From contig NZ_PEND01000005.1 of the NCBI RefSeq assembly GCF_002844195.1, positions 434,001 to 498,000 on the forward strand: DNA of 64,000 nucleotides, in the 5' to 3' direction. A model generated the notes under the pieces. That model was not told the origin of the DNA. It saw nothing but the letters and a program-made list of their open reading frames with translations, and did not search any database. Below, piece after piece: positions 956 to 47,095 of the stretch. The stretch comes from Halegenticoccus soli. Its GTDB lineage: Archaea > Halobacteriota > Halobacteria > Halobacteriales > Haloferacaceae. Positions within the stretch are counted from its first letter, which is position 1, and every line of letters starts with the position of its first letter. A program made the translations under genes and the position numbers.

Positions 956-1183
956 GGAAGCCGGCATAGTACTCAACAGACGATACACGGTTTCATGGCC
1001 GGGTTGTGATACGTTTAGCTGAATTAAGGCGCTAAGTCCCCTTCCTCAGCGAGCGCCAACTGAACGAGAGGCGCGAGCAGGGAGGGGATACAGCGCCGCA
1101 CGTTTGTTCATACACTCTACGACGGCAGGCCCACAGGCCCACGTTCCGTCACACTTAACCACATATCTTGTGTAACTTGTGGT

Positions 1184-1306
1184 GTGGTAAAGCGCAAGAA
1201 CATCTCGATACGCGACGACCAAGAGGAGTGGATTCAGGAGAATCACCTGAATCTCTCGCGGTTCGTTCAGGATAAGCTGGACGAACTCATCGAGGAGCGC
1301 GAATAG
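1184..1306 (+). CDS. Small RHH-like accessory protein of the TnpB element
   Basis: A 40-residue frame starting at GTG 1184 (MVKRKNISIRDDQEEWIQEN, then a helix ending in DELIEERE) ends at a TAG only 3 nt before the TnpB ATG. A basic beta-strand (KRKNISIRDDQ) followed by two amphipathic helices resembles ribbon-helix-helix or CopG-type antitoxin-like peptides. Comparable microproteins often precede tnpB in haloarchaea. It may be an autoregulator of the tnpB operon. The frame stays open upstream without an ATG, so the start is uncertain by a few codons. Confidence 0.65.
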   Translation: MVKRKNISIRDDQEEWIQENHLNLSRFVQDKLDELIEERE

Positions 1307-1309
1307 TGG

Positions 1310-2479
1310 ATGTACTACGCCTACAAATATCGTCTCAAACCGTCCGACGCCCATCGCGAGGAGTTGGACCGCCACCGCGATATTTGTAGACAACTGTACA
1401 ATCACGCGCTCTACCGCTTCAACCAAATCCCCGAGGACGCGGGCACTCTCAACCAGCGCGTCCGGTCCGTTCGCGACGAACTTCCCGCCCTGAAAGAGTG
1501 GTGGGATGGCCTCTCGGACGTGTACTCAACAGTCCTGCAAACAGCGGTCATGCGAATCGAGCAGAACGTCAAGTCGCTCGGGGAACTCAAGGAGAACGGC
1601 TACGGCGTCGGCCAGCTCAAGTGGAAACCGCCACGGGAGTTCCGCAGTTTCACGTACAGTCAGTCTGGCTTCAAGCTCGACAAGAAGGGCGGTCAGACTG
1701 TCCTGTCACTCTCGAAACTCGCGGACATACCGATACGGCTCCACCGCGCCATCCCCGACGACGCCAAGCTCAAGCAGGTCACGGTCAAGAAGGAACCGAC
1801 GGACGAGTGGTTCGCCACGTTCGGCGTCCAAATGGACCGTGAGACACCCGAACCACCCGAGAACCCCGAGAAGTGTGTCGGTATCGACGTGGGGATTCTC
1901 ACGTACGCCCATGACACCGACGGCACGGCGGTCGGGTCGCTCGACCTCTCGAACGAACGTGAACGCTTGGAGCGCGAGCAACGGAAGCTCTCGCAGAAGC
2001 AACACGGCTCTGCCAACTACAAGAAGCAACGGCGTCGAGTCGCAGAGTGTCACGCCGTCCTCCGACGGAAGCGCCGCGACTTCTTGCACAAGCTCTCGAA
2101 CTACTACGCTCGGGAGTACGACCTCGTAGCTGTCGAAGATTTGAACGTGAAGGGGATGATGGAGTCGCCGTCGAACAGCCGCAACACGGCGTCTGCGGCG
2201 TGGCGAACGTTCCTCTCGGTGCTCGACTATAAGTGCGAGCGAGCGGGGACGCACTTCGTGGCGGTCGACCCGAGAGGGACGACCATGGAGTGCGCGGCGT
2301 GCGGCGTTTCGACGGACAAGCCGTTGTGGGTCCGTGAACACTCCTGTCCCGCCTGCGGGTTTGAGGCGGACAGGGACGCGAACGCGGTCGCCAGAACCGC
2401 CGGTTCTGGCGGGCAGCCAAAACGCGGAGCGTTTTGGCAACGGCGTGGAACATTCTTTCTCGCGGCCTCGAAGACGTAG
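1310..2479 (+). CDS. tnpB: TnpB RNA-guided nuclease homologue (IS1341 type)
   Basis: A 389-residue TnpB with the RuvC acidic residues in place: D in KCVGIDVGILTYAHD (near residue 190), E in LVAVEDLNVKGMM (near 280) and D in ADRDANAVA (near 360). The zinc ribbon CAACG...CPACG sits between the last two. TnpB proteins use a right-end-derived omega RNA to cut DNA, which favours retention of IS200/IS605 elements. After the final RuvC aspartate the frame enters two short hairpins and is shifted. The ordinary C-terminal tail (beginning WNILSRGLEDVGVGYSE) continues in another frame from 2446 to a TAG at 2608-2610. All catalytic residues precede the shift, so activity may survive. Confidence 0.9.
   Translation: MYYAYKYRLKPSDAHREELDRHRDICRQLYNHALYRFNQIPEDAGTLNQRVRSVRDELPALKEWWDGLSDVYSTVLQTAVMRIEQNVKSLGELKENGYGVGQLKWKPPREFRSFTYSQSGFKLDKKGGQTVLSLSKLADIPIRLHRAIPDDAKLKQVTVKKEPTDEWFATFGVQMDRETPEPPENPEKCVGIDVGILTYAHDTDGTAVGSLDLSNERERLEREQRKLSQKQHGSANYKKQRRRVAECHAVLRRKRRDFLHKLSNYYAREYDLVAVEDLNVKGMMESPSNSRNTASAAWRTFLSVLDYKCERAGTHFVAVDPRGTTMECAACGVSTDKPLWVREHSCPACGFEADRDANAVARTAGSGGQPKRGAFWQRRGTFFLAASKT
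2389..2438. repeat. Tandem pair of perfect 3-nt-loop hairpins in tnpB
   Basis: Hairpin 1 (2389-2411) has arms CGCCAGAACC/GGTTCTGGCG with loop GCC. Hairpin 2 (2416-2438) has arms GCCAAAACGC/GCGTTTTGGC with loop GGA. Each is exactly 10+3+10 nt. They separate the RuvC-III part of tnpB from its tail and shift the frame. A homologous pair with different arm sequences occurs at 28887-28935. Confidence 0.9.
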
Positions 2480-2625
2480 GAGTGGGATACTCCGAAGGAA
2501 CGCCTGTGGAGACTGCGCTCCCTGTGGATACTCCTGTATCTGCAAAGCGCGTCGTGGAAGCAGGAAGCCCTCCCCTCACGGAGCGAACGGCGTCAGCCGT
2601 GAGCGAGTAGGATAGGGTAGTTCAC
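2440..2625 (+). ncRNA. Candidate omega RNA / sense-overlapping RNA at the tnpB 3' end
   Basis: IS200/IS605 TnpB proteins are guided by RNAs covering the 3' end of tnpB up to the right end, and sense overlapping transcripts at IS1341 3' ends are known in Halobacterium. The segment from about 2440 to the right end at 2625 is conserved in kind in the two shorter derivatives (28519 and 39410 elements), which have lost tnpB coding capacity. The guide would begin in the flank just after 2625. This call rests on family knowledge and position only, since no transcript is visible. Confidence 0.4.
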
Positions 2626-2775
2626 CACCACGACCGAGGTGCGTTGCCGCCATCGGGGCGGGCTGGGAAGCTGGCGGAGAACACGCCACTTGATCCTCCC
2701 GAGCCCCTCGAACGTAGAGTCACCTGTCTCTCCCCAGGGTAGAAATGCTAAGCTCTTCGCCTCCCTACATCGCAT

Positions 2776-3746: not shown

Positions 3747-4937
3747 ATGATCGAACGACACGACACTGTCATTATCGGTGGCGGCCAAGCCGGACTGGCG
3801 ACTGGGTATTACCTGCAGCAGCACGACCAGGACTTCGTCATCCTCGACGCGAGCGATCGCGTCGGCGACGCATGGCGGGCCCGCTGGGACTCCCTCCGGG
3901 TGTTCACGCCCGCCCGATATTCGAGCCTACCGGGGATGGACTTTCCGGGCTCACCGTACGCCTTCCCCACAAAGAACGAGGTGGCCGACTACCTGGAGAC
4001 CTACGCCCAGCGGTTCGACCTGCCTGTCGAACTTGGCGTCCGCGTAGATGGGCTGGAACGGAGCGGCGATGGCTTCCTCGTCACCGCGGGCGACCGGCGG
4101 ATCGAGTCGGACAATGTCGTGGTGGCGATGGCGAGCTACCAGGTCCCGAAGGTCCCGGATTTCGCGGCGGAGCTCTCCGACGACATCGTCCAGCTACATA
4201 CGAGTGACTACCGAAACCCCGATCAGCTCCAGGACGGGAACGTACTCGTCGTCGGGGCGGGCAACTCCGGCGCCGAGATCGCCCTCGACGTCGCCGGCGC
4301 TTCACGCCGGCTGCAAGCGAGACGCGGAGCGTCTCGCCCTGTCGCCTCCGAGCACGAAACGTGGCTGTCGGGTCGAGATGTCGGCCACGTGCCGTTCCAC
4401 ATCGACTCGTGGGTCGGCCGTCACCTCGGGGTCCCGTTTGTGATGCGCGTGCTCTTCCATCGGATCTTCACGACGGGGACGCCGATCGGGCGCCGTATCC
4501 GCCCGAAGGTGCTCTCACAGGGCGGCCCGCTGGTGCGCACGAAGCCGAGTGACCTGGCCGCAGCCGGCGTCGAGCGGGTGCCTCGCACGACCGGCGTCCG
4601 TGATGGTCGCCCCGTCGTCGGGGACGACGTTCTCGACGTCAAGAACGTTATCTGGTGCACTGGCTTCCGCCCTGACTTTTCGTGGATAGACCTCCCAATC
4701 TTCGACGAGAAGGAACAGCCCAAGGAGCCTGTCCACGTGCGCGGTGTCGTCCCGGACGAGCCGGGACTGTACTTCGTCGGCCTCTTCTTCCTGTACGCGA
4801 TGACGTCGGGGCTGTTCACCGGCGTCGGCAGGGATGCAAAGTACGTCGTCGACCACCTGACGTCGACGGCGCGGCAGCAGCAGCAGCCTCGTCCGAGCTA
4901 TATCGGATCGGTGGACGACCTCCTCCAGCAGTCGTAG
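3747..4937 (+). CDS. Flavin-containing monooxygenase / NAD(P)-FAD oxidoreductase
   Basis: A 396-residue class B-type flavoprotein. The FAD Rossmann motif is near residue 8 (VIIGGGQAGLATGYYL), the NADPH-binding motif near residue 168 (VVGAGNSGAEIAL), and a typical C-terminal segment reads DEPGLYFVGLFFLYAMTSG. Such enzymes oxygenate small substrates or act as YUC/CzcO-like reductases, and the substrate is unknown. The segment between the NADPH motif and the conserved SGRDVGHVPF contains an apparent extra stretch of about 16 residues (near RRLQARRGASRPVA). This stretch is encoded around a perfect 9-bp-arm hairpin at 4317-4337, so the gene seems to carry an in-frame insertion. Folding and activity may be affected. 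Confidence 0.85.
   Translation: MIERHDTVIIGGGQAGLATGYYLQQHDQDFVILDASDRVGDAWRARWDSLRVFTPARYSSLPGMDFPGSPYAFPTKNEVADYLETYAQRFDLPVELGVRVDGLERSGDGFLVTAGDRRIESDNVVVAMASYQVPKVPDFAAELSDDIVQLHTSDYRNPDQLQDGNVLVVGAGNSGAEIALDVAGASRRLQARRGASRPVASEHETWLSGRDVGHVPFHIDSWVGRHLGVPFVMRVLFHRIFTTGTPIGRRIRPKVLSQGGPLVRTKPSDLAAAGVERVPRTTGVRDGRPVVGDDVLDVKNVIWCTGFRPDFSWIDLPIFDEKEQPKEPVHVRGVVPDEPGLYFVGLFFLYAMTSGLFTGVGRDAKYVVDHLTSTARQQQQPRPSYIGSVDDLLQQS
4317..4337. repeat. Perfect 3-nt-loop hairpin inside the monooxygenase gene
   Basis: Arms GCGAGACGC/GCGTCTCGC with loop GGA give a 21-bp perfect hairpin. Its design matches those in the TnpB-type elements, and the arm core plus GGA loop resemble the second hairpin at 2416-2438. 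The surrounding codons look like an in-frame insertion relative to the protein family. Confidence 0.85.
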
Positions 4938-28518: not shown

Positions 28519-29067
28519 GTGAACTACCCTGCCCTACCGCGCTCGGGCTACTCGCCCCTCGCTTGTAGAGGACAGGGCTTCCTGTTTCTGCGTCGGCACG
28601 TGCACCCGACGTGGGCACAGTGGTTCCAGACTCCGCAAGCGACTTCCCTTTACGGGTGGTTCGGAGTGTCCCACTCCTACCAGATGGACACTCGGCCACA
28701 ACCGACGGTGCGCGCTTCGTGTCGTCGTTCGAAAGGTGCGTAGCACCTTTCGTGATGACGAAACGGCGAAGCCGTTTCGAACCACGCGTGAACACCATCG
28801 GAAGCGTGGTGAGCATCGAACTATCCCTATCAACCGCACAGATAGTAACTGTAACGGAGATGGTGTCTGAGAACCGTGCGGGCGTCGCCAGAACGCGGAG
28901 CGTTCTGGCTGCCAACCAGAAGCCTGCGGCTTCTGATGACGTTGACGAGACGCTTTGCGTCTCGTTCGCGCACAAGAGCAAAGCTCTTGTGCACGCTGTC
29001 TCCCCTCCCTGCTCGCTCCCGTTGGTCGCTCAATGAGGAAGGGGGCGTAGCGCCTCACTTCAGCTAA
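28519..29067 (-). mobile_element. Non-autonomous IS1341-type derivative (549 bp) with six perfect hairpins
   Basis: Read on the minus strand, the element starts TTAGCTGAAGTGAGGCGC (29067 inward) and ends in GGGTAGTTCAC (28519). These ends match the full TnpB element at 1015-2625. The last about 180 nt correspond to a tnpB tail and right end (GGAGTGGGACACTCCGAA). Most of tnpB is missing, so the element cannot encode a nuclease. Its interior carries six perfect hairpins at 28730-28752, 28759-28779, 28887-28909, 28917-28935, 28945-28965 and 28970-28992, all with 3-nt loops. It could be mobilised in trans and may still encode an omega-like RNA. Confidence 0.75.
28730..28992. repeat. Cluster of six 3-nt-loop hairpins
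   Basis: In order the arms are CGAAAGGTGC (loop GTA), CGAAACGGC (loop GAA), GCCAGAACGC (loop GGA), CAGAAGCC (loop TGC), ACGAGACGC (loop TTT) and GCACAAGAGC (loop AAA). Each is followed by its exact reverse complement. Arm sequences are unrelated, while arm length (8-10) and loop length (3) are constant. Confidence 0.95.
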
Positions 29068-29184: not shown

Positions 29185-29208
29185 GTGAAATAACGTAAGT
29201 TATTTCAC
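29185..29208. repeat. AT-rich perfect hairpin over the subtilase stop codon
   Basis: Arms GTGAAATAAC/GTTATTTCAC (10 bp) flank loop GTAA. The hairpin includes the stop codon of the subtilase gene (29205-29207 on the minus strand). It may be a transcription terminator or 3'-end stabiliser, or another member of the hairpin set. Confidence 0.7.
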
Positions 29209-30287
29209 ATGGGCGTGCTCGCAGAGTCCACTTCCCTCGTTTTGACAACGGCTCTGTAATCCACAATACCTTCCCCATCGCGAGGCTGGCATTCGATGTT
29301 TCGAGCACCGCTCTCGAATGCGGTCAGAATTGATTCGGGCGTCTGGTTACCCTGGCTGCTCAGATGCTTCGCTACCATTCCAGCGACCTCCGGAGCGGCG
29401 AACGAGGTTCCGGATGCTTTCACCCACCGACCCTCGAGCTGCTTTCCCATCACCGTCCCTGACGCTTGCGCCAATCGGTTATCCTTGCCAATGGCAGTCA
29501 CGTCGGGGTTGTCATCCTGTGGATTGTACGAGGAAAATTCAGTCATCGCTCCGCGTTTCGTACAAGCACCGACACTGAACGCCCTTTTTGCTGTCGCTGG
29601 ACTTCCGCCTTCCTCACCCGAATTGCCGGCGGCAACGACGTCTCGGACGCCTTTATCGATTAGCTGGGTGTGGATTCGGTCGAGTTGTTCGGACTGCCGT
29701 TGTGACCCCCAGGACATGTTCACAACGTCGTACTCCTCGACGTTTTTGTGAAGCCACTCATAGGCACGAAGGACGACGTTCATCGTCGTCTGTCCTTTGT
29801 CGCCGAATATTCGAAGCGAAACGAGTTCGGTCTCAGGAGCGAGGCGGATGACTTGACCCGCGACCGCCGTCCCATGTCCGAGGGCGTCTTCATCCCCGGT
29901 AGAGTCCGTGACGTCGACCTGCGTGATCGAGGCCTCATCGAATACTGGGTGAGCCGTATCAATTCCAGAGTCCATGATCACTACCGTTTGTCGTTCACCT
30001 GCCCCGCCCGCGCGCGGGACGGAGTGTAGTCGACGCACGTCCTCGAGCGTTGCGACGGCCGATGGTGCATCGGTCACGAAAGCGGGCTGATATCGAACTG
30101 TGGCGAGCTGATTGTCCTCGACGTTGATAACGTGATCGTCGGCGTGTAATGGGTCCTCTTCCTCGGCGTCGTACTCGACGTACGCAGCCGAGCAAAGACC
30201 CTCACCGAAGGAATACGTTTCGTGGACTGTGCACTCGGTTTCAGTCAGCGCTTCTGGCTGGTCGTTATAGAAGACGATTTTGTCCAT
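29205..30287 (-). CDS. Intracellular subtilisin-like serine protease (S8)
   Basis: A 360-residue S8 peptidase with the complete triad: Asp in VVIMDSGIDTAHP (near residue 106), His in ALGHGTAVAG (near 138) and Ser in ASGTSFAAPEVAG (near 305), plus the oxyanion Asn in VAAGNSGEEGG. No signal peptide or Tat motif is present. Residues 1-90 are an acidic N-terminal region (NDQPEALTETECTVHETYSF) that could be a pro-domain or sensor part. A cytosolic subtilase suggests protein processing, quality control or an accessory system. Upstream on the same strand lies a disrupted gene that may encode its partner. Confidence 0.88.
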   Translation of the reverse strand: MDKIVFYNDQPEALTETECTVHETYSFGEGLCSAAYVEYDAEEEDPLHADDHVINVEDNQLATVRYQPAFVTDAPSAVATLEDVRRLHSVPRAGGAGERQTVVIMDSGIDTAHPVFDEASITQVDVTDSTGDEDALGHGTAVAGQVIRLAPETELVSLRIFGDKGQTTMNVVLRAYEWLHKNVEEYDVVNMSWGSQRQSEQLDRIHTQLIDKGVRDVVAAGNSGEEGGSPATAKRAFSVGACTKRGAMTEFSSYNPQDDNPDVTAIGKDNRLAQASGTVMGKQLEGRWVKASGTSFAAPEVAGMVAKHLSSQGNQTPESILTAFESGARNIECQPRDGEGIVDYRAVVKTREVDSASTPM

Positions 30288-39331: not shown

Positions 39332-39409
39332 AGATTAGCAGCCGTATGCGCCGGAGCTGGATATAGCGAACGGCCGTAGACGTGTTACAGGGCGCGAAAT
39401 TTGGGCTGG

Positions 39410-39788
39410 GTGAACTACTCCGACCTACCGCACTCGGGCCTACCCGGCCCTCGCTTGTTGAGGTCGGAGCTTCCTGTTTCTGTGTCGAAACTTGCACCCG
39501 ACGTGGGCACAGCGGTTCCAGACTCCACAGGCGACTTCCCTTTACGGGTGGTTCGGAGTGTCCCACTCCTACCAAATGGACACTCGGCCACACCCGACGG
39601 TTCGCGCTTCTTGTCACGCTTGAACACCGTCGGAGACGTGGTGAGCATCGTACTACCTGCTTCGACCGCGCGGGGAGTAAAGATGCCGTAGACAGTGAAA
39701 GTAACCCGTACGGGCGCTGTCTCCCCTCCCTGCTCGCGGCTTCGCCGCTCGCTGAGGAAGGGGGCTTAGCACCCTCGATTACAGCTAA
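39410..39788 (-). mobile_element. Non-autonomous IS1341-type derivative (379 bp)
   Basis: The right end GTGAACTACTCCGACC at 39410 and the inward-read left end TTAGCTGTAATCGAGG at 39788 match the 28519-29067 element and the full TnpB element. The tnpB-tail segment (TTTACGGGTGGTTCGGAGT on the plus strand) is nearly identical to the one at 28645-28670. It lacks the six hairpins of that copy and keeps only a weak GCGGC/GCCGC remnant near 39736-39748. It has no coding capacity. Confidence 0.7.
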
Positions 39789-40147
39789 CGAATGAAATGG
39801 GGATCGAGTAACGAATGAAAACCAGAGCCGAGATGGTATTGGACACCGCGACGTAGAGCCGGTTGCAGCGCGGGCAGCAATCGACGTTGTACAATCGCGT
39901 GGGCAAACGAGGCGGGGAGAGGCCACCGTGCAATCGGCACGAGCCGTCGCCCTGACAACTTGTCGATGAAACAGTCGACAGTCAGACCACCGTTCACCAA
40001 GTATTTTCGAGGGGAGCGATCGTGGACCGTACCGGTCGCAGTCGGCGCAGGCGTTGGGTTACTCTACGACTCATCTAGTAACTATCGGGAGTACAAAATA
40101 GATATATTATAAACCTTGATCAATTTACCCGATAAGTTGAGGTATCG
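39789..40147. other. Gap before the third phoD-like gene, with promoter
   Basis: No gene is recognised. The last 60 bp are AT-rich and contain TAGATATATTATAAACC (about 40102-40118), a good haloarchaeal TATA region about 30-45 bp before the ATG at 40148. Confidence 0.5.
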
Positions 40148-45022: not shown

Positions 45023-45257
45023 TGAGTCAACGCCTCGCGGGTACAGCAGAGAACGGACCTCAATCCACAACCTGCACTATCACTTCATCTGGCGTCCGAA
45101 GTACCGCAAGGCAGTGCTCACTGACGAGGTGGCAGGGGCGATGGCATGCCCCGTGCGCCTTAAGTGGGACGCCCACAACTGGGCAGAGCCACCACACGCT
45201 CAAGAAAGTCCCAGCGAGGTTCGCACGCACCGGCAAAAGACCTTCGTCGGTGCGTAA
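45023..45257 (+). pseudogene. Fragment of an IS200-type TnpA (Y1 transposase)
   Basis: The frame reading ESTPRGYSRERTSIHNLHYH, then FIWRPKYRKAVLTDEVAGAM matches the first 40 residues of IS200/IS605 TnpA. It then diverges, and the HUH motif and catalytic tyrosine are absent. A stop at 45255-45257 ends the frame. This is the deleted start of another element lying against the decayed element to its right. Confidence 0.65.
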
Positions 45258-45297
45258 ACAGCCTCGGGCGCGGTGGCCCAAGGCTTTTGTAGTTCCC

Positions 45298-46601
45298 TCA
45301 GCCTTGCGCTAGCACTCCCTGTTCCGCGAGGGAACGGGATGAGGTTGGGCGGCTTACGCGCCCCGACCCGGACAGACGCACCAACCGAACTTGCGGCTGG
45401 GTTTTGTGAGTCCGGTAATTCGTCGTGTTACCGTCGAGTTTCGCCTTCTCACGCCATGCGATGTTCACCGACGCGTTCCGGTCAGCGTGGTCTTGCACCA
45501 CGTCACACTCGTCGTTCGTACACCCGAACCGCCGTCCCTGACGATGCCCACGCTCACCACAGCACGAACACGTCTGCGAGTTGTGGTAGGCGTCCACCTT
45601 GTCCGTGGGGATCTCTCGCTACGTCGCCTTGTACGAGACAAACTTCTCGAATTTGTGGAACAGGAGTTTGTGCAACCGTCGGTTCATGTACGACCCGTAC
45701 TGTATTTCGTCGCGGATACCGCCCATATCCTCGAACACGATGACCGGGTTCGAGAACTGTTCTGCGAACTCCACGACAGTACGGGAGAGTCGATGCAACA
45801 CCCATTCGGTGAATCGTTCTTCCTTGTCACCGAGTTTCTGGTGAATGCTCGTCTTGCCGTGTTCCTAACAGCGAGTGGTGATAGTGTGGTAGCGTTGGCG
45901 TTCCTGTTTGACTCGTCCGTAGTCGAGGACGAGCGTGCCCTTCGTCCGCATCGTCTCGCGGTCAAGGGCGGTGAGTGCGACGTCGCGTTCGTTGATGTCC
46001 ACGCCAACCAGCGTATCGGTGGTGTCGGGGTCGGGCACGTCGAACTCGCGTGTGACCGTGACGTGGAGGTAGTACACGCCATCGCGGTACAGGAGTTCAG
46101 CCTGCCCCACATCCACCTCGTCTGACGTGATGGCGTCCCGAAGTTCGTCCATCGCGACCGGTTCACCGCGCAGATGGCCTTTCACCTTCTTGTAGGGTTT
46201 CGGGCTGATGCGAAACTGGACGCGCTCGGTGTCATCGTCCACGGTGAGTCTGTAGCCTTCCGTGTGTGCCATCACAAGCGGGTACGCACCGGATTTGTCC
46301 GTACTCGGTGGCGTTGGTTTCCCTCCATCTGGGTCGCCTTGTTCGTACCACCACTCAAGGAGGGATTGGTAGGAGTCCCATGTTTGGAGGCTTTGCCGAC
46401 GACCGCGCACTTGTTGTTCCGCAAAAAGTCGTCGCGGTCAACTTCCTTCTGTATCTCGGTGCGGGTGTACCCTTGTTGTTTGAGGCGGATGGTATCGTTG
46501 AATATCTCTCGTGACGCGAGGCGGGCATCGTGAAGCCACGACCGCTTACCAGACGCTACGTGAAGACGCGTCTGAATCGTCTTCGTGGCTTCCTCACCCA
46601 T
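45298..46601 (-). pseudogene. tnpB: TnpB nuclease gene, decayed (one frameshift, two in-frame stops)
   Basis: From ATG 46601 the N-terminus (MGEEATKTIQTRLHVASGKR) is tnpB-like. The frame shifts near 46415 into SLQTWDSYQSLLEWWYEQGD. The shifted frame then contains RuvC-I (LVGVDINERDVALTALD), meets TAG at 45865-45867, resumes with HGKTSIHQKLGDKEERFTEW and RuvC-II (VIVFEDMGGIRDEI), meets TAG at 45619-45621, and ends with the zinc ribbon (CSCCGERGHRQGRRFGC ... CDVV) and RuvC-III (HADRNASVNIA). All catalytic residues survive as sequence, but the reading frame is broken, so no active nuclease is expected. It is divergent from the TnpA gene at 46637. Confidence 0.85.
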
Positions 46602-46636: not shown

Positions 46637-47095
46637 GTGTTAGGGACGGAGGAGCACCGCAGTCACGCGAATTCTGTTAGTTCCTGCAAGTATCACTTCG
46701 TGTGGTGTTCGAAGTCAAGCAAAGCGAAGCTTTGCGTACCTCGCGGGATCGAAGATCCCGCTCAGTACCGCCACCCGGTTCTCAACGTGGTTGAAGACGA
46801 TGTACGAGAGTTGTTTGGGGAGACTGCTGACCACTTCGGGCACGATATTCTGGCGTTGGAGATTGCGGACGATCACGTTCACCTGTTCGTGCAAACTGAC
46901 TCGAAGCACAGCCCTGCGAACATCGCTCGGCAGTTCAAGTCGTACTCTGGCAAGCACTTGCTGGAGCGGTATCCCGATATTCGGGAGTCGTATTTCTGGG
47001 GTGGCGGGTTTTGGAAGGTCGGGTACTACGTGGGGACGACGGGCGCGGTGTCTGAGGAGGTGGTTGAACGGTATCTCGAAGAGACGGAACACTAG
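46637..47095 (+). CDS. tnpA: IS200/IS605 TnpA (Y1 HUH transposase) with an internal 17-residue insertion
   Basis: A 152-residue protein (GTG start). The family features are the N-terminal strand CKYHFVWC, the HUH pair DDHVHLFVQTD and the helix with the likely catalytic Tyr (EVVERYLEE). Between VWCSK and YRHPVL, where normal TnpA reads on directly, about 17 residues (SSKAKLCVPRGIEDPAQ) are inserted in frame. They are encoded by two hairpins at 46719-46761. The insertion lies near the start of the fold and may or may not be tolerated. Single-strand transposition of TnpB-only and hairpin-ended elements would need such an enzyme. Confidence 0.85.
   Translation: MLGTEEHRSHANSVSSCKYHFVWCSKSSKAKLCVPRGIEDPAQYRHPVLNVVEDDVRELFGETADHFGHDILALEIADDHVHLFVQTDSKHSPANIARQFKSYSGKHLLERYPDIRESYFWGGGFWKVGYYVGTTGAVSEEVVERYLEETEH
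46719..46761. repeat. Two hairpins inside tnpA
   Basis: GCAAAGC/GCTTTGC with loop GAA (46719-46735) is followed by GCGGGATC/GATCCCGC with loop GAA (46743-46761). They fall within the in-frame extra segment of TnpA and have the same 3-nt-loop design as the tnpB-associated hairpins. Confidence 0.85.

Follow-up and report, generated by a model that had tools for sequence, protein, structure and literature searches.

Candidate mobile double-hairpin mini-elements of 49–60 bp in haloarchaeal DNA

REPs are conserved in sequence and rely on a relative of Y1. The hairpins that Y1 enzymes recognise are described as conserved, and Rickettsia palindromic elements are larger, single palindromes. Double-hairpin and repetitive hairpin-forming elements (DHE/RHE) have been described in fungal and sponge mitochondria, where they are scattered and also located within genes (PMC2800124). 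In Haloquadratum, SMR-A of about 110 bp and SMR-B, one of which measures 80 bp, have prominent terminal repeats and more than 95% identity within a type, and their mobilisation has been called enigmatic (PMC3119063).

The window analysed here, the whole stretch of 64 kb, contains a 549-bp element in which a first-pass annotation had reported six perfect hairpins with 3-nt loops at 28730-28992, and all six are present there:

28730-28752, hairpin 1, arm 10 bp, loop 3 nt, perfect
28759-28779, hairpin 2, arm 9 bp, loop 3 nt, perfect
28887-28909, hairpin 3, arm 10 bp, loop 3 nt, perfect
28917-28935, hairpin 4, arm 8 bp, loop 3 nt, perfect
28945-28965, hairpin 5, arm 9 bp, loop 3 nt, perfect
28970-28992, hairpin 6, arm 10 bp, loop 3 nt, perfect

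Judging from comparisons of sequence, these hairpins are probably parts of mobile double-hairpin mini-elements of 49–60 bp that insert whole into haloarchaeal DNA. The module plan consists of two tandem stem-loops with a C-G closing pair, short fixed ends, and a fixed linker. Hairpins 1 and 2, 3 and 4, and 5 and 6 make up three such modules, each inserted whole, and do not represent six independent events. All three probably entered the IS1341-type element, where two came to lie stacked at a single site. The element, its modules, and a homologue that serves as an empty control within the window are as follows:

28519..29067, minus strand, tnpB-less IS1341-type element, IS200/IS605-related, PATE-like (PATE, palindrome-associated transposable element); right end 28519, left end 29067
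28725..28784, plus strand, type 1 module, 60 bp, TCGTT-(hairpin 28730-28752)-TGATGA-(hairpin 28759-28779)-AACCA
28883..28939, minus strand, leader-B module, 57 bp, TC..TTGGCA..GACG, hairpins 28887-28909 and 28917-28935
28940..28993, minus strand, leader-A module, 54 bp, TG..GCGA..CAACG, hairpins 28945-28965 and 28970-28992
39409..39790 (limits approximate), minus strand, homologous element with all three modules missing

Both the left and the right end of the 28519-29067 element are as in IS1341-type tnpB elements of the same genome, matching the tnpB element at window 1020-2630 and the copies L002-L006; the element has these ends without tnpB and is therefore PATE-like. L002 is a copy of it with 93% identity. 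In the 39409-39790 homologue, the type-1 site at about 39617 is empty and reads GGTTCGCGCTTCTTGTC/ACGCTTGAACACC (the slash marks the point of insertion), against GGTGCGCGCTTCGTGTCG/module/CGCGTGAACACC in the filled state, and the leader site at about 39717 is likewise empty, reading GACAGCG/CCCGTACGG. Leader-A is stacked on leader-B, both at one ACAGCG/CC site, and leader-B is missing from L012, L003, L004, and window ~39717. Three states of the leader site are found among the copies: no module (window 1083, L003, L004 plus strand, and L052), a single related module (the minus-strand copy of L004, L007, and L008), and two stacked modules (the 28519-29067 element and L002). Predicted RNA folding of the type-1 module at 28725-28784 pairs its ends weakly with the TGATGA linker (TCGTT with GATGA and, on the other strand, TGGT with ATCA), which might matter for recognition. 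Outside the modules, a separate perfect hairpin with a 4-nt loop (GTGAAATAAC-GTAA-GTTATTTCAC) lies at 29185-29208, just 3′ of a subtilase-like ORF at 29205-30287.

In total, the window holds six modules, that is, twelve hairpins, one of them with a mispaired stem. The remaining modules, together with the one annotated RNA, are these:

2388..2443, plus strand, module of 56 bp within the C-terminal part of tnpB, ORF 1310-2479
4291..4341, plus strand, module of 51 bp with a mispair in one stem, in frame in an FAD-dependent oxidoreductase, ORF 3747-4937
46715..46765, plus strand, module of 51 bp, in frame in a Y1 (IS200-type) tnpA, ORF 46637-47095
45236-45419, minus strand, sot2652 (RF02657, sense overlapping transcript RNA of IS1341-type genes)

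The module at 2388-2443 shifts the tnpB frame just past the last zinc-finger region, and its site is empty in copy L027 (GAACGCGG/CGTGGAAC); L015 and L020 carry the same insert, and elements with a truncated TnpB therefore appear to have spread. The oxidoreductase orthologue in G304 (L364, 86% amino acid identity) is exactly 51 bp shorter at the 4291-4341 site. In the tnpA protein, the third insert reads WCSK/SSKAKLCVPRGIEDPAQ/YRHPVL; the homologue L040 is empty at this site, and tnpA genes of two other genomes (L203 and L223) share the module, with the loop inverted from GAA to TTC in L203, a change from Glu to Phe.

Filled and empty sites are also found in other genomes. In genus g14, an orthologous site downstream of a conserved gene is filled in two species and empty in four: the 58-bp type 1 found in G056 between CTCGTTG and CGCTCCTCG is shared by G443, and the site is empty in G449, G388, G457, and G454. 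Another double hairpin, unlike the first, is present only in G443, at CCTCGCGG/CTGCCCC. At an IS1341 right end, L052 is empty (GCCTCGGGG/CTTGACCCCGAGGC) and L116 is filled, the flanks being 97% identical, while a host repeat in G016 is empty in about 35 copies and occupied at two different positions in others. The leader module recurs with identical arms in the unrelated context GGCG/CGGGAATC (L009 and L016), and modules nest within one another, as a second-type double hairpin inside the TGA/TGA linker of type 1 (L263:1751-1868; also L171 and L262) produces a four-hairpin composite. The target CGNNG/CG is common to 155 type-1 insertions; all junctions checked are G/C except that of the oxidoreductase, which is G/T, and most inserts start with TC. 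There is no target duplication at type 1, and at most a 2-bp CG at the GTC types. Insertion within palindromes is modestly above that seen with swapped flanks. The hosts are unrelated, comprising IS elements, a host gene, and non-IS intergenic repeats.

Taken alone, empty versus filled sites are compatible with loss, but the pattern at the orthologous locus and the in-frame insert in a host gene favour gain as the probable direction. Some type-1 copies move with a larger PATE-like element, as in G017, and an independent jump is therefore not true of every copy. A search for an autonomous partner, in which a gene would stand between type-1 half-ends, found none; half-ends without TGATGA turned out to be chance matches or nested modules. 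In genus g14, an intergenic repeat of about 250 bp (AAAGCCCCAGCCG..CCCCTTTGAGTCCCACC..) often hosts type-1 and related double hairpins (L139/L333 and relatives), with 220-430 first-look candidates per genome, part of them scored.

The spread of type 1 was followed with the search pattern TCGTT-hairpin-TGATGA-hairpin-AACCA, in which ends and linker are fixed, so that their conservation among the matches is partly by construction. Group counts were made by hand, and several of the genomes searched are drafts. Since neither ends nor linker can vary in the pattern, the counts are minima. Type 1 is present in 29 of 60 genomes of the family; of the 393 genomes sampled from the phylum, 50 have it, and these belong without exception to the window's order (50 of its 81 sampled genomes, from nine families). 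None of the 312 sampled phylum genomes outside the order has a match, and the reversed-pattern control returned zero matches in all family and phylum genomes searched. GTDB contigs contain at least 120 type-1 stretches, and all 80 matches listed are from haloarchaea; the pattern search found type 1 absent from IMG/VR viral contigs.

The constant geometry with free sequence remarked upon at the outset is borne out by these copies. The type-1 sample comprises 326 hairpins with arms of 8–10 bp, 271 of them perfectly paired, and its 92 stem pairs contain 41 different perfect stem sequences. Pairing is kept in 98.1% of the cells in the covariation analysis (30–51% in slid-structure controls), and double-change cells number 102 against 37.5 ± 5.5 when shuffled. 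The remark that no two hairpins share arm sequence is correct inside the element; across genomes it fails, as stems recur from a limited library. Loops measure 3 nt in 289 of the 326 hairpins, and 205 of these 289 (71%) read GNA or, in the complementary form, TNC, although chance alone would account for about 36. The two orientations are nearly equal in number (60 GAA and 55 TTC; 41 GGA and 35 TCC), and C precedes the loop in 195 of the 196 stems of fully perfect modules. Hairpins with C-GNA-G loops are known for their extraordinary stability as DNA mini-hairpins, and published work makes use of them.

Loops change faster than their surroundings: against L002, differences affect 8 of 18 loop positions, 5 of 112 arm positions, and 25 of 412 positions in the rest (loops versus rest, Fisher p=1.3e-5). 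Between L004 and L008, 80 downstream bases are identical, yet 6 of 6 loop bases are changed, one loop being an exact inversion. Exact loop inversions distinguish 11 of 48 type-1 pairs with similar flanks, a weak excess over the 14% expected. In yeast, template switching has been reported to homogenise arms and to invert spacers, a change from GAA to TTC among them (PMC8604942). As the arm and loop changes match these published products, template switching is a good explanation, by inference, for matched arms and flipped loops. It may keep the arms matched, and it is without an explanation for insertion at fixed junctions in unrelated hosts. Thus, what stands of the original suggestion of template switching is the compensatory arm change and the GAA/TTC inversion, and not the origin of each hairpin on site.

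How such hairpins might otherwise have arisen can be weighed against the counts. The window contains 14 perfect loop-3 hairpins with arms of at least 8 bp, against 2.1 in order-2 Markov sequence; the background of 0.24 per 64 kb put forward earlier was too low, yet the excess persists. Over 1.25 Mb of this genome, perfect loop-3 hairpins with arms of at least 9 bp number 53. Another loop-3 hairpin lies no more than 10 nt away from 27 of them, while each of three order-3 Markov simulations gave 0, and the earlier claim of more hairpins than in random sequence is thus upheld, chiefly by the pairs. The other 26 are solo, about twofold above the 11–13 expected, and some of these are close enough to expectation to agree with inverted repeats that cluster by chance where DNA is GC-rich. 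As a general account, however, chance is practically inconceivable and is refuted by the controls, since 168 tandem pairs occur in 2.5 Mb of partly selected loci and none in Markov sequence, and the reversed pattern has no match in any genome. Both DNA strands fold as two hairpins (z ~ -7). The account first proposed has every hairpin arise at its present site in the course of single-strand IS200/IS605 transposition, when a nick would have been followed by fold-back repair or template switching. Template switching does yield perfect arms, short loops, and inverted loops (PMC8604942), and the modules are common in IS200/IS605-type elements. Nevertheless, where a module is absent all of its parts are missing together, arms as well as hairpins, linker, and ends; the same stems recur in unrelated hosts with fixed ends and linker, and modules are found in a host gene and in genomes where neither Y1 nor TnpB is detected. 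Fold-back as the origin is therefore largely refuted and highly improbable.

Selection on a transcript is also unlikely. It would make the modules RNA domains, of tnpB mRNA, omega-RNA, or another small RNA, with covariation reflecting selection on RNA folding, and the strong covariation, the copies in the tnpB 3′ region and leader, and an RNA fold that is stable on either strand would all fit. For a strand-specific RNA, however, the near-equal frequency of GNA and its complement is unexpected, and modules are missing from many homologues and sit in unrelated hosts, including the oxidoreductase gene. The type-1 loci match no Rfam family, a search at these sites having returned nothing, and the sot2652 match in the window lies only at 45236-45419. 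A reading of TGATGA as a C box, or of the fold as a K-turn, was dropped since the partner D box is absent. Rather more room, though still little, is left for REP/BIME-like units or minimal IS200/IS605 ends (a left and a right hairpin) that a Y1 transposase, TnpA or RAYT, would mobilise, a doubtful reading. In its favour, the modules are small paired hairpins without target duplication, often in IS200/IS605-type elements, and a 52-bp 'terminal-only' IS605 derivative, maybe mobile, has been reported (PMC3119063). Against it, type-1 copy number shows no correlation with Y1 transposases over the 60 genomes (Spearman 0.05, p=0.73), which speaks against dependence on Y1 TnpA; Y1 was not detected in G016 and G056, with 15 and 8 type-1 copies, and neither Y1 (TnpA) nor TnpB in G040 and G057, with 4 copies each; and the stems are free in sequence, unlike the hairpins described for Y1 enzymes. 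A TnpB match lies within 2 kb at 15 of 162 type-1 sites, many contig flanks being too short to judge. The absence of both enzymes from G040 and G057, together with the uncorrelated copy number, means that a present-day IS200/IS605 enzyme is not required, a lost or unrecognised one being possible, and tells against IS200/IS605 single-strand transposition as the maker of the hairpins.

Insertion of whole double-hairpin modules is thus the preferred reading, and a mechanism can be proposed tentatively. A putative strand-transfer enzyme would read the folded shape and the fixed ends while the DNA is single-stranded or extruded, which would leave the letters of the stems free, and template switching would maintain the matching of the arms and sometimes invert a loop. 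The modules could then represent a class of mobile DNA, independent of IS200/IS605 transposases, in which the enzyme reads a pair of hairpins capped by C-GNA-G, along with fixed strands at the junctions, and not the stem sequence, the letters drifting by template switching until almost no fixed sequence is left; we regard this as possible rather than probable. A unit that keeps its shape and not its sequence would be largely invisible to similarity searches, and so could be common and overlooked. The enzyme that moves the modules could be a structure-guided DNA insertion system, the in-frame gene inserts, each adding about 17 residues, form a natural series of protein insertions, and the loops and arms offer an abundant natural archive of archaeal template switching. 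The modules are undescribed in the open-access full text searched, from which the subscription literature may differ, and tiny mobile double-hairpin DNA is apparently undescribed so far.

Compared with known systems, the modules resemble each in part. Like REP/BIME with RAYT, they are short hairpins, often paired and without a gene of their own, but their stems vary freely and no connection with Y1 genes is apparent; neither a linked Y1/RAYT in the genome nor a conserved hairpin sequence was found. They differ from MITEs, which have target duplication and the terminal repeats of a known transposase, as judged on target duplication. No known RNA family of the omega-RNA/sot kind is present at type-1 sites. 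The GTT/AAC polarity at module ends is opposite to that of integron attC, a site recognised by its structure, where a tyrosine recombinase acts on the folded strand. The host element itself fits PATEs, having IS605-type palindromic ends and no transposase gene, whereas the double hairpins are inserts within it and not its ends. Rickettsia palindromic elements are likewise palindromic inserts tolerated in frame within protein genes (PMC6649704); the modules differ in being double hairpins with fixed linkers.

Closer still are the Haloquadratum SMR-A and SMR-B, which are also tiny, non-coding, without target duplication, and nested in IS605-type elements and PATEs (PMC3119063). The modules share the lack of target duplication and the location in IS605-type elements and PATEs, and occur in host genes and other repeats as well; at 49–60 bp, with free stems in 41 perfect sequences, they have neither the length of about 110 bp nor the identity above 95% within a type by which SMR-A is described. 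Within 400 kb of H. walsbyi J07HQW1, no sequence could be identified as SMR-A (HqIRS42/43/55). With the mitochondrial DHE/RHE the modules share tandem hairpins, scattered insertion, complementary stem substitutions, and loops more variable than stems (PMC2800124), while fixed ends and linker with a shared target, a 3-nt GNA loop, and a mixed stem library are not described in the sections consulted; a relation in sequence would not be expected. The modules, too, are tandem hairpins whose sites are scattered and have homologues without an insert; a mitochondrial location does not apply, since type 1 is confined to the order among the genomes sampled and the listed GTDB matches are haloarchaeal. 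The nearest kinds would therefore appear to be the mitochondrial double-hairpin elements and the Haloquadratum SMRs, which we regard as analogues that seem to work alike, claiming membership in neither.
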